A stretch of 64,000 nucleotides of DNA, taken from contig NZ_CP114901.1 in the NCBI RefSeq assembly GCF_027497175.1, positions 1,860,001-1,924,000 of the forward strand, given 5' to 3'. Below, in pieces: positions 3,076-10,040 of the stretch (positions within the stretch are counted from its first letter, which is position 1; every line of letters starts with the position of its first letter). The notes beneath the pieces were generated by a model. It ran no database searches, had not been told where the DNA came from, and worked only from the letters and a program-made list of their open reading frames with translations. A program made the translations under genes and the position numbers. The DNA comes from Verrucosispora sp. WMMD573 (GTDB lineage: Bacteria; Actinomycetota; Actinomycetes; Mycobacteriales; Micromonosporaceae).

Positions 3076-3717
3076 GTGGGCGCGATCACCGGAACGTTCA
3101 AGGGCTTCGGGGTCACCTTCTCGCACATGTTCAAGAAGGTCGTCACCACCGACTACCCGTTCACCCCGCCGACGCCGGCCCCCCGCTACCACGGGCGGCA
3201 CATCCTCAACCGGCACCCGGACGGGCTGGAGAAGTGCATCGGTTGTGAACTGTGCGCCTGGGCCTGCCCGGCGGACGCGATCTACGTCGAGGGCGGCGAC
3301 AACACCGACGAGCAGCGCTTCTCGCCGGGCGAGCGGTACGCCAGCGTCTACCAGATCAACTACGCCCGGTGCATCTTCTGCGGGCTCTGCATCGAGGCCT
3401 GCCCGACCCGCTCGTTGACCATGAGTAACGAGTACGAGCTGGCCCGGGACAACCGTCAGGATCTGATCTTCACCAAGGAGCAGTTGCTGGCCCCGCTGCT
3501 GCCGGGGATGGAGCAGCCGCCGCACCCGATGCGGCTGGGTGACAGCGAGAAGGACTACTACGTCGGCAGCCTGACCAACCCGGGCACCTCCGCCGGGGCG
3601 GAGCGCTCGCCGATGGGACCGGGCCGCTACCAGGTCGACGAGCACCCGGGCGTCACCTTCCCCGGTGCCGAGCAGGCCGCCGCGCGGGCCGAGGCGGAGA
3701 AGGGGGAGTCGGCATGA
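3076..3717 (+). CDS. nuoI: NADH-quinone oxidoreductase subunit I (two 4Fe-4S clusters)
   Basis: NuoI is the ferredoxin-like subunit that passes electrons through clusters N6a and N6b towards N2 and quinone. Both cluster motifs are intact: C54, C57, C60, C64 ([12 protein letters not shown]) and C99, C102, C105, C109 ([12 protein letters not shown]). At 213 residues it is slightly longer than many homologues because of a hydrophilic C-terminal tail. The GTG start at 3076 follows GAGGAGG at the end of nuoH by a short spacer, and the stop overlaps the nuoJ start (ATGA). Confidence 0.96.
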
Positions 3718-6769: not shown

Positions 6770-6849
6770 TCGACCTCTTGAGGCTGTCGGCCTCACAGGC
6801 GGCCGTCGCCGGCGGACCGCACAGTGACGACGGAGGTAAGGCCGCATAA
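6766..6849 (+). CDS. Possible 27-residue ORF linking nuoL to nuoM
   Basis: A GTG overlaps the nuoL stop (GTGA), and this frame runs 27 codons to a TAA that overlaps the nuoM ATG (TAATG). The peptide begins MIDLLRLSASQAAVAGG and resembles nothing I know. The nuoM ribosome-binding site GGAGGT lies inside its last codons. The double overlap fits translational relay between two stoichiometric subunits, but the ORF may equally be a chance frame in a spacer. There is no protein-level evidence. Confidence 0.3.
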   Translation: MIDLLRLSASQAAVAGGPHSDDGGKAA

Positions 6850-8381
6850 TGTCCGACTTCCCGTTCCTCTCGGTGCTCACCGTGGCGCCACTTGTCGGCG
6901 CCGTGGTCGTCGCTCTCCTGCCGCGCAGCCGGCCGACGCTGGCCAAGCAGGTCGCGCTCGGCTGGTCGCTGCTGGTGCTGGCGCTGTCGGTGGTCATGTG
7001 GGTGACCTTCCAGGTCGGTGGCGACCGGTTCCAGTTCCGCGAGTCGTACCCGTGGATCCCGAACTGGGGGGTCAACTTCACCTTCGCCGCCGACGGCATC
7101 GCGCTTGTCATGCTGATGCTGATCGCGGTGCTGGTGCCGCTGGTGATCCTGGCGTCCTGGCACGACGCGGAGTCCTCAAGGCGGTCGGTGCCGGTCTACT
7201 TCGCGCTGCTACTCGTCCTCGAATGCACGATGATCGGTGTCTTCGCCGCCGCCGACGTCTTCCTGTTCTACGTGTTCTTCGAGGTCATGCTGGTGCCGAT
7301 GTACTTCCTGATCGGCAGCTACGGCGGTCACCAGCGGCAGTACGCGGCGGTGAAGTTCTTCCTCTACTCGCTCGTCGGTGGTCTGTTCATGCTGGCCGCC
7401 GTGATCGGCCTGTGGGTGGTCGGCGGCAAGACCTTCGACTGGGTGGCGCTGTCGCAGGTGGACATCTCCACAGGCGCCGAGCGCTGGCTCTTCCTCGGGT
7501 TCTTCGTCGCGTTCGCGATCAAGGCACCGTTCTTCCCGTTCCACACCTGGCTGCCGGACGCCGGTGGGGCGGCACCCGCCGGTGCCGCCGCGCTGCTGGT
7601 CGGCGTGCTGGACAAGGTCGGCACCTTCGGCATCCTGCGGTACTGCTTGCCGCTGTTCCCGGACGCGGCCCAGTGGTTCGCGCCGTGGGCGCTGGCCCTG
7701 GCGGTCATCGGGATCATCTACGCGGCGCTGCTGGCCGTCGGGCAGAACGACCTCAAGCGGCTTGTGTCGTACACCTCGATCGCCCACTTCGGCTTCATCG
7801 GTGTGGGCATCTTCGCCTTCACCACGCAGGCGGGCACCGGGGCGGTGCTCTACATGGTCAACCACGGCCTCGCCACCGGGCTGCTGTTCCTGGTGGTGGG
7901 CATGCTGATCGCGCGTCGGGGCTCGGCGCTGGTAAGCGACTTCGGTGGCGCGGGCAAACTGGTGCCGGTGCTGGCCGGTGTGCTCTTCTTCGCCGGTCTC
8001 GCCTCGCTGGCCCTGCCCGGCACCGCGCCGTTCGTCTCCGAGTTCCTGGTGCTGATCGGCACGTTCACGGTGAACAAGCCGGTCGCGGTGATCGCCACGT
8101 TGGGCATCATCCTGGCGGCGGCGTACGTGCTGTGGATGGTGCAGCGCACCACGCAGGGCACGCTGAACCCGGCGCTGGCCGAGATCGACGGCATGAAGCG
8201 TGACCTCAACCTGCGCGAGAAGGTCGTCGTGGCCCCCCTGATCGTGCTGATCGTGCTGCTCGGCTTCTATCCGAAGCCGGTGACGGACGTGATCAACCCC
8301 GCCATCCAGGCGACCATGCAGGACGTCGGCCGGACCGACCCGGCCCCGTCGGTAGACACCGTCCAGGAGGCGAGTCGGTGA
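6849..8381 (+). CDS. nuoM: NADH-quinone oxidoreductase subunit M
   Basis: NuoM is the middle antiporter-like proton-pumping subunit of complex I. The product has 510 residues with about 14 helices. Family markers include FFEVMLVPMYFLIGSYGG near residue 140 (the conserved glutamate of helix 5) and KAPFFPFHTWLPDA near residue 225 (the conserved lysine of helix 7). GGAGGT at 6832-6837 precedes the ATG. The stop is embedded in the GTGA that opens the first of two inserted repeat units before nuoN. Confidence 0.96.
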   Translation: MSDFPFLSVLTVAPLVGAVVVALLPRSRPTLAKQVALGWSLLVLALSVVMWVTFQVGGDRFQFRESYPWIPNWGVNFTFAADGIALVMLMLIAVLVPLVILASWHDAESSRRSVPVYFALLLVLECTMIGVFAAADVFLFYVFFEVMLVPMYFLIGSYGGHQRQYAAVKFFLYSLVGGLFMLAAVIGLWVVGGKTFDWVALSQVDISTGAERWLFLGFFVAFAIKAPFFPFHTWLPDAGGAAPAGAAALLVGVLDKVGTFGILRYCLPLFPDAAQWFAPWALALAVIGIIYAALLAVGQNDLKRLVSYTSIAHFGFIGVGIFAFTTQAGTGAVLYMVNHGLATGLLFLVVGMLIARRGSALVSDFGGAGKLVPVLAGVLFFAGLASLALPGTAPFVSEFLVLIGTFTVNKPVAVIATLGIILAAAYVLWMVQRTTQGTLNPALAEIDGMKRDLNLREKVVVAPLIVLIVLLGFYPKPVTDVINPAIQATMQDVGRTDPAPSVDTVQEASR

Positions 8382-8489
8382 GCGCGAGGAGTGAGCTTGC
8401 GAGCCCCGCAGTCGCGAACGAAAGGCTGGTGGGGTGAGCGCGAGGAGTGAGCTTGCGAGCCCCGCAGTCGCGAACGAAAGGCTGGTCCA
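8378..8489 (+). repeat. Two tandem 56-bp units inserted between nuoM and nuoN
   Basis: Unit 1 is 8378-8433 and unit 2 is 8434-8489; their first 53 bases are identical. Each unit begins with GTGA, and the next GTGA is the nuoN start. In frame, each unit is a 19-codon ORF reading VSARSELASPAVANERLV plus one residue, whose stop overlaps the next GTG. Each carries CGAACGAAAGG about eight bases before the following GTG, a usable ribosome-binding site. I recall very similar segments scattered through Micromonospora genomes, which suggests a dispersed repeat family. Confidence 0.9.
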
Positions 8490-10040
8490 GTGACCGAGCT
8501 TGAACTGCCGCCGATCGACTACGCGGCGATCGCGCCGATCCTGATCATGCTGGGCGCGGCGGTGGTCGGGGTGCTGGTCGAGGCGTTCGTGCCCCGGCGG
8601 CTGCGGCACCCCGTACAGCTGCCGTTGGCGCTGCTGGCGGTGCTCGCGGCACTGACCATGGTGGTGGTCAACGCCGACAAGCGAGTGATCACCATCGGGG
8701 TGATCGCCGTCGACGGGCCGACACTGTTCCTTCAGGGCGCGATCCTCGCGCTGTCGGCGGTCGCGCTGCTGCTGCTCGGCGAGCGGGTGGTCGAGCGGGG
8801 CGGTGCGTTCGTCGCGCAGGCCGCGGTGACCGCCGACTCGCCGGAGGACCGCCAGCAGGCGGAGAGCGCCGGTGGTGCGGGCGAGGTGTACCCCCTCACC
8901 ACCTTCGCCATCGGCGGCATGCTGATCTTCGTGTCGGCGAACGACCTGCTGACCATGTTCATCGCGCTTGAGGTCTTCTCCCTGCCGCTCTACCTGCTCT
9001 GCGCGCTGGCCCGTCGCCGCCGGCTGCTGAGCCAGGAGGCGGCGATGAAGTACTTCCTGCTCGGCGCGTACGCCTCGGCGTTCTTCCTGTTCGGCCTGGC
9101 GCTGATCTACGGCTTCACCGCCGGGCTCGGTGACCGGGCGGCCGGGGTGGACTTCGCCACCGTCAACGCGGCCGTGGCCAACTCGACGGCCAGCCCGGTG
9201 CTGCTCTTCGCCGGTATGGCGCTGGTCGCCATCGGTCTGCTGTTCAAGGCTGCCGCCGCGCCGTTCCATGTCTGGACGCCGGACGTCTACCAGGGTGCGC
9301 CGACGCCGTTGACCGGATTCATGGCGGCCTGCACCAAGGTCGCCGCGTTCGGTGCCCTGCTGCGGGTGTTCCATGTGGCCTTCGAGGGTGCCCGCTGGGA
9401 CTTCACCCCGGTGCTGGGCGCTGTGGCGGTGCTCACCATGCTGGTCGGCGCGCTGTTCGCGGTGACGCAGACCGACATCAAGCGGCTGCTGGCGTACTCG
9501 TCGATCGCCAACGCCGGCTACCTGCTCGTCGGTGTGCTCGCACCGGGCAGCGAGGGCCTTTCCGGCACCATGTTCTACCTGGTCGCCTACGGTTTCACGG
9601 TGTTGGCCGCGTTCGCGGTGGTGACGTTGGTGCGCGACGCCGACGGTGAGGCGACCCACCTGTCCCGCTGGGCCGGGCTCGGTCGACGCTCGCCGGTCTA
9701 CGCCGCCGTCTTCACCTTCGTCCTGCTGGCCTTCGCGGGCATCCCGATGACCAGCGGCTTCACCAGCAAGTTCGCGGTCTTCGGTCCGGCGTTGGACGGT
9801 GGGCAGGTGTGGCTGGTCATCGCGGGCGTGTTGACCAGCATGGTGCTGGCCTTCCCGTACCTGCGGGTCGTGGTGCTGATGTGGCTCTCCGAGCCGGGTG
9901 ACTCGACGCCCACGGTGGCCGTTCCCGGCGGGCTCACCTCGGCCGCCCTGGTGATCGGGGTGCTCGCCACGCTGGTGCTCGGCGTCGCGCCGTCGCCGCT
10001 GCTCGACCTCGCGTCCTCGGCCGCCGACTTCGTCCGGTAA
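8490..10040 (+). CDS. nuoN: NADH-quinone oxidoreductase subunit N
   Basis: NuoN is the proximal antiporter-like proton-pumping subunit of complex I. The 516-residue product shows the conserved FIALEVFSLPLYLLCAL segment near residue 160 and KAAAAPFHVWTPDVYQGAPTP near residue 255. The GTG at 8490 overlaps the stop of the second inserted mini-ORF. The nuoM tail carries GGAGG eight bases before 8378, so an ancestral nuoN start probably sat directly on the nuoM stop before the repeats arrived. It is the last gene of the operon and a strong hairpin follows. Confidence 0.95.
   Translation: MTELELPPIDYAAIAPILIMLGAAVVGVLVEAFVPRRLRHPVQLPLALLAVLAALTMVVVNADKRVITIGVIAVDGPTLFLQGAILALSAVALLLLGERVVERGGAFVAQAAVTADSPEDRQQAESAGGAGEVYPLTTFAIGGMLIFVSANDLLTMFIALEVFSLPLYLLCALARRRRLLSQEAAMKYFLLGAYASAFFLFGLALIYGFTAGLGDRAAGVDFATVNAAVANSTASPVLLFAGMALVAIGLLFKAAAAPFHVWTPDVYQGAPTPLTGFMAACTKVAAFGALLRVFHVAFEGARWDFTPVLGAVAVLTMLVGALFAVTQTDIKRLLAYSSIANAGYLLVGVLAPGSEGLSGTMFYLVAYGFTVLAAFAVVTLVRDADGEATHLSRWAGLGRRSPVYAAVFTFVLLAFAGIPMTSGFTSKFAVFGPALDGGQVWLVIAGVLTSMVLAFPYLRVVVLMWLSEPGDSTPTVAVPGGLTSAALVIGVLATLVLGVAPSPLLDLASSAADFVR

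Follow-up and report, generated by a model that had tools for sequence, protein, structure and literature searches.

Mycobacterial interspersed repetitive units (MIRUs), traced to Supply et al. 1997 in the consulted portions of two papers (PMC12548453, PMC4128351), are the closest described counterpart of the repeat reported here. In the available part of a 2025 review (PMC12548453), MIRUs are apparently mobile, insert at start codons and carry an internal ORF coupled at -4 nt, with a minimal impact on genes considered likely; the class I MIRU is given as 77 nt in an excerpt of a transcriptome paper (PMC4128351). REPs, according to the accessible portion of a REP survey (PMC3733652), are placed downstream from coding regions, and the word actinobacteria is absent from that portion.

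The repeat described here was encountered in a window of 64,000 nucleotides (contig NZ_CP114901.1, positions 1,860,001 to 1,924,000), where two units lie between the genes nuoM and nuoN, named as in an earlier, sequence-only reading of this DNA. Like the MIRUs, the Micromonospora repeat is short, dispersed and either single or tandem, is inserted at start codons (79 of 119 arrays, against 10 of 6000 random positions), and contains an ORF that overlaps the downstream start by 4 nt in 123 of 158 last units. Mobility is a further likeness, read here from occupied and empty junctions, with at least six changes at nuoN. The two differ in that the Micromonospora repeat comes from another family, in that its units are mostly 56-62 nt as against the 77 nt of the class I MIRU, and in its several loop classes and possible hairpin. 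By analogy, the Micromonospora repeat appears to work like a MIRU, a likeness of described behaviour. The senX3-regX3-like junctions inspected, from 23 of 24 same-order genomes, showed no repeat by eye. The earlier reading knew of no described element with this behaviour, a statement that does not hold, as the available text of the review (PMC12548453) presents MIRUs in the same terms. Our search of open-licence papers found no Micromonospora version of such a repeat. The observation is real, well supported and wider than the window alone could show, and it is of a kind already described in mycobacteria. While the start-codon habit is known from MIRUs, the present case adds another family, with tens of copies in each genome, several loop classes and numerous empty sites. 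The copies, loop classes and empty sites make a statistical test possible, with the outcome that the phase of the mini-ORF is kept and the peptide is not.

At the nuoM-nuoN junction, both the sequence and the repeat finder give two 56-bp units, head to tail and 56 nt from start to start (TRF score 220; Table 1). The units agree at 53 of 56 positions in the register that opens on GTGA, where only the last three bases differ, and at 54 of 56 in the register of the repeat finder (8377-8432 and 8433-8488). By the ORF coordinates, the nuoM stop lies inside the first GTGA and nuoN starts on the third, and each unit is a 19-codon ORF with an SD-like sequence, all as the sequence-only reading had it. 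The same reading took the GGAGG of the nuoM tail to fit an ancestral overlap of the two genes. Those empty congeners whose junctions were displayed do have GGAGG directly 5' of the nuoN start, and this motif is likely the original Shine-Dalgarno sequence (SD) of nuoN. The repetition is not fortuitous: the 19-nt left end of the unit occurs at 2 places only in the window with up to three mismatches, against a mean of 0.08 in 100 shuffles, one of which had two or more.

Table 1. Features of the nuoM-nuoN junction, in window positions
Feature	Positions	Strand	Description or basis
ORF called nuoM	6849..8381	+	510 aa; stop TGA within GTGA 8378-8381
ORF called nuoN	8490..10040	+	516 aa; starts at GTG 8490; same start codon as in empty relatives
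GGAGG of nuoM tail	8366..8370	+	sequence; upstream of mini-ORF 1
Element unit 1, loop class A	8378..8433	+	sequence, repeat finder, family matches
Element unit 2, loop class A	8434..8489	+	sequence, repeat finder
Mini-ORF 1	8378..8437	+	19 sense codons and TGA; TGA overlaps mini-ORF 2 start by 4 nt
Mini-ORF 2	8434..8493	+	19 sense codons and TGA; TGA overlaps nuoN start by 4 nt
AACGAAAGG, SD-like end of unit 1	8417..8425	+	sequence
AACGAAAGG, SD-like, before nuoN	8473..8481	+	sequence
Proposed imperfect hairpin of unit 1	8378..8415	+	GTGA foot, GCG-GG-G stem vs C-CC-CGC, short loop

Insertion at this junction, as first claimed from the window, is borne out by its relatives. With nuoN matched at E <= 0.001 in all 41 genomes, the junction was compared in 25 congeners: 11 have no unit there, and the other 14 have one or two units, partial units or units of other loop classes, so that no identical two-unit junction runs through all relatives. 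On the nuoN tree, these states require at least six changes between occupied and empty. The same alternation is found at 18 further loci, chosen because they are occupied in the genome of the window: in six relatives, 43 of 103 orthologous junctions are occupied by an automatic count with up to five mismatches, which is rough (L015 was scored 1 in G001, where it reads empty, and 3 in G013, where it reads 2). Of the 18 loci, all but L007 are empty in at least one of the relatives found. The alternation of occupied and empty junctions between relatives indicates that units have come and gone in these soil bacteria.

The unit has 35 BLAST matches (E <= 0.001) in the 6.5-Mb genome of the window, and its 20-nt core, at up to three mismatches, has 33 matches there against 4 for a reversed control. 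Allowing two mismatches, all 49 same-genus genomes have the core (8-81 matches each), as do 3 of 32 genomes from other families of the order, with one match each; the remaining 29 have none. A family-wide draw of 300 genomes gave the core in all 106 same-genus genomes (8-96 matches each) and in 80 of 194 genomes of other genera; many of the latter have one or two matches, which is the level of the reversed control, and the genera coded g56, g60, g61, g39 and g51 clearly exceed it. The 80 matches listed, of at least 120 stretches, come from Micromonospora, Plantactinospora, Phytohabitans and one unclassified member of the Micromonosporaceae. The majority of the other-genus copies examined (L402-L410) lie near a start, L408 before a gene read as tryptophan synthase alpha. 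Single units occur as well as tandem arrays, the number of units ranging from partial to five.

Two features of this distribution may be recorded separately. One genome of the genus coded g53 (G248) has five exact core copies in four places, and other drawn members of its genus have none to two; a horizontal arrival of these copies is possible. In the genome of the window, two three-unit arrays (L010, 261318-261470, and L011, 3220552-3220709) stand at unrelated genes and have a common spacer sequence, as though one site had received its entire array from the other.

Where the repeat sits was tabulated for 119 arrays with enough flank, among the matches listed in the genome scan, against 6000 random positions held to equal criteria. 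Under lax thresholds, 85 of the 119 arrays and 22 random positions have a coding ORF that ends in the left NTGA (82 and 14 under strict ones); for a coding ORF starting on the right, the figures are 109 and 1481 (94 and 1027 strict). Because 1481 random positions also pass, a start on the right is by itself a weak criterion; the left-hand criterion and the joint one are strong, with both a stop and a start at 79 arrays against 10 random positions (lax; 65 and 6 strict). By eye, nine of the 10 arrays without a called start stand before a probable one (least certainly L134 and L201) and one (L142) is intragenic, and in about 10 of the 34 arrays without a called stop the upstream gene ends in the first GTGA. 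No array was recognised at a plain intergenic site among the 119. A crude gene caller puts the RTGA sites without an element in the same DNA at 1178 intergenic and 127 stop/start sites, and survival of harmless insertions alone would therefore place most copies in plain intergenic DNA. The preference for start codons, chiefly at stop/start overlaps, is thus found in relatives too, and copies scattered without such preference, which the sequence-only reading had named as the outcome against it, did not turn up.

The one intragenic array of the 119 is L142, from Micromonospora solifontis (3607-3666), a 60-nt unit in frame inside a gene read as kynureninase-like, which gains 20 residues. Of the 61 genomes that gave a match, the 20 relatives listed have an empty site, and any duplication would not exceed one base. 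In-frame insertion into a coding gene is a feature of the Rickettsia palindromic elements; L142 resembles them in this respect, but it is a single case here.

The ends of the element indicate how it meets the native start codon. Both ends were recognised in 154 arrays, with GTG on the left and GTG on the right in 117, GTG and ATG in 33, ATG and ATG in 2, ATG and GTG in 1, and GTG and TTG in 1. An ATG start is thus preceded by an element with GTG at its left end in 33 of 35 cases, the other 2 having ATG. Where the native ATG could be read from empty relatives, four arrays run from native flank to element GTGAGCG and then to native ATG (L264 at the L018 locus, L026 and L272 at the L026 locus, L274 at the L053 locus). 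A GTG to the left of a native ATG means that the element brings its own 5' GTGA and that the native start stays. Accordingly, the early suggestion that insertion targets and regenerates the 4-bp overlap stands in its first part, as the repeat sits chiefly at stop/start overlaps, but the overlap is not simply duplicated. Nor is an RTGA-type overlap, although the chief site, an absolute target, as the intragenic L142 and L309, before an ATGC start, both show. L309 is also an exception to clean start-site insertion, as are the L048 locus, with a distance of about five bases, and the L020 locus, described below. Flank repeats of 13-16 nt accompany L239, L171 and L238, in L239 including the SD, with GGAGGCCACCCTGTGA on both sides; these repeats are not explained by insertion without duplication, and the two ATG/ATG arrays likewise count against the favoured reading. 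A fixed target duplication is not general, only a few arrays carrying such repeats.

L020, in the genome of the window (6084693-6084956), consists of five 58-nt units with GTGGCTGA on both sides, and its SD part is unlike that of the other loci displayed.

Reading phase was followed in 223 arrays of 104 downstream locus groups, 176 of them with a recognised start and 158 with a measurable last unit; the 65 left out had no recognised start or left end. Measured as far as the downstream start, the last unit has a length of 2 mod 3 in 132 cases, 0 in 21 and 1 in 5 (n=158), with peaks at 56, 59 and 62 and few at 65 and 68. A length of 2 mod 3 makes the mini-ORF stop on a TGA that overlaps the next start, and 123 of the 132 do end in an NTGA overlap; the other 9 stop in frame just before, read as TGATGA. 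When each locus group is represented by its majority phase, the split is 61/13/2 for 2/0/1 mod 3 (n=76), with a binomial p of about 6e-17 for 61 of 76, a value that overstates the case because units are copies of one another and inherit their lengths in part, so that the independent events are effectively fewer than the counts suggest. Internal units divide 62/30/9 (n=101), and the fraction out of coupling phase is 26/158 for last and 39/101 for internal units. Loop classes with core offsets of 23, 26, 28, 32, 55 and 56 (few units in the last three) have spacers that restore the phase. Peaks spaced by three bases and compensation between loop classes would be difficult to obtain unless phase is selected for.

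The peptide behaves differently from the phase. In the three main classes, 83 distinct substitutions fall 25/28/30 by codon position; so even a spread argues that the peptide is not what is kept, and the 3' half of class B is in another frame. A conserved peptide thereby finds no support. Avoidance of stop codons was considered as further support for the mini-ORF and is uninformative, with 1 stop-creating change seen and 1.5 expected. From the phase, we infer that the mini-ORFs are translated and coupled. The passage of ribosomes from nuoM through both mini-ORFs to nuoN, proposed at the outset, stands to the extent that the phase for a stop-to-start hand-over is kept, but the coupling itself is a deduction from that phase.

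Very probably, then, both units belong to a small mobile repeat that is dispersed in the Micromonosporaceae, inserts at start codons and would be made transparent to translation by termination-reinitiation. The repeat would insert immediately 5' of a start codon, in the orientation of the downstream gene. The TGA of its 5' end, GTGAGCG, would end the upstream gene where it ended before, and the GTG, spaced from the native SD as the native start had been, would open the mini-ORF, while the 3' end would supply a new SD (about AACGAAAGG and 7-8 nt) before the retained native start codon. As units are mostly 2 mod 3 in length, the mini-ORF would stop on the TGA that overlaps the downstream start, and ribosomes could pass nuoM, mini-ORF 1, mini-ORF 2 and nuoN by termination-reinitiation. 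A mini-ORF kept in phase, with its own SD, would render the element nearly silent in an operon, where it could then expand to tandem arrays. The movement would be by a transposition-like step. A larger claim is more doubtful, though it deserves mention: that translation-transparent mobile elements may have arisen more than once, independently, with these repeats as a second class that has no recognisable transposase, is aimed at start sites and is selected for an in-phase mini-ORF without fixed sequence, so that operon coupling survives both insertion and tandem expansion.

Several other explanations have to be set against the start-codon-inserting mobile repeat. That the two units arose by local tandem duplication, or are an assembly slip at one junction, would suit their near-identity, but single units exist and the repeat is dispersed in all 106 same-genus genomes of the draw, which rules out such an origin for practical purposes. 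It is also improbable that the repeat serves the host in regulation, as an attenuator, leader peptide or RNA hairpin retained because it acts on the downstream gene. Placement before starts, the kept phase and one co-varying pair in the putative stem would agree with such a role; however, presence varies between close relatives for the same gene, the 223 arrays precede 104 locus groups, the peptide is not conserved, and the number of units runs from partial to five. A MITE of a DDE transposase, which has terminal inverted repeats and makes a target duplication, can be set aside: around the nuoM-nuoN units, the repeat finder gave no inverted repeat reaching 12 nt, and any duplication at L142 is of one base at most.

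REP and IS200/IS605 elements are moved by a Y1 transposase, and the repeat could be of their type, a single-strand hairpin with a GTGA foot, moved in trans by a Y1 HUH transposase (RAYT) without target duplication, its start-site placement following from an RTGA target. We consider this rather unlikely. A tetranucleotide foot beside a possible imperfect hairpin, tens of copies per genome, the absence of inverted repeats in the region, and the lack of duplication at cleanly read sites such as L142 and the ATG starts are what such elements would give, and one stem pair co-varies, G13-C26 becoming A-T in 11 of 196 unique units from four locus groups, with 6 others that break or wobble. A GTGA-foot hairpin is thus a possibility, but of the five classes folded as RNA, four are no more stable than shuffles (z of -2.2 for A, -0.16 for B, -0.75 for C, -0.61 for E and +0.82 for D). 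The foot pairs with TCGC in the minimum-energy fold of classes D and E only; fold energies lend no support to a shared stable hairpin beyond class A, which folds otherwise. In 34 of the 49 same-genus genomes, that of the window included, there is no match to Pfam Y1_Tnp, and the other 15 have one to eight; since all 49 carry the core, a Y1 transposase is not a mover common to all carriers. Moreover, the Micromonospora repeat contains an SD and an ORF, precedes starts, runs in the direction of the gene and is head to tail in arrays, unlike the REPs downstream from coding regions in the accessible survey text (PMC3733652), and neither L309 nor L142 fits RTGA. A spread that needs no transposase is also on the unlikely side, to a similar degree. 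Here SD, spacer and GTGAGCG would flank every unit, and template switching or short-homology recombination between SD-start regions would copy the core and expand arrays. This would explain the target, the orientation, the tandem arrays and the longer flank repeats, as in L239, and L010 and L011 with their common spacer look copied. The right spacers, however, are mostly of element type with the native start kept, which makes junctions sharper than random crossover within homology would, and the insertion in L142 took place without such homology.

With the mobile, start-codon-inserting repeat as the favoured reading, termination-reinitiation as a filter on mobile DNA becomes directly testable. 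Start-site annotation is affected as well, for in-phase 60-nt units lengthen a reading frame by 20 codons. Among the less regular forms of the element, a long-loop class is represented by two Phytohabitans records and one Micromonospora record (L151, L164, L186), and the nuoM-nuoN junctions of G011, G020 and G016 (L105, L106 and L108) hold longer composite inserts with nested repeats of the GAGCGAG type.
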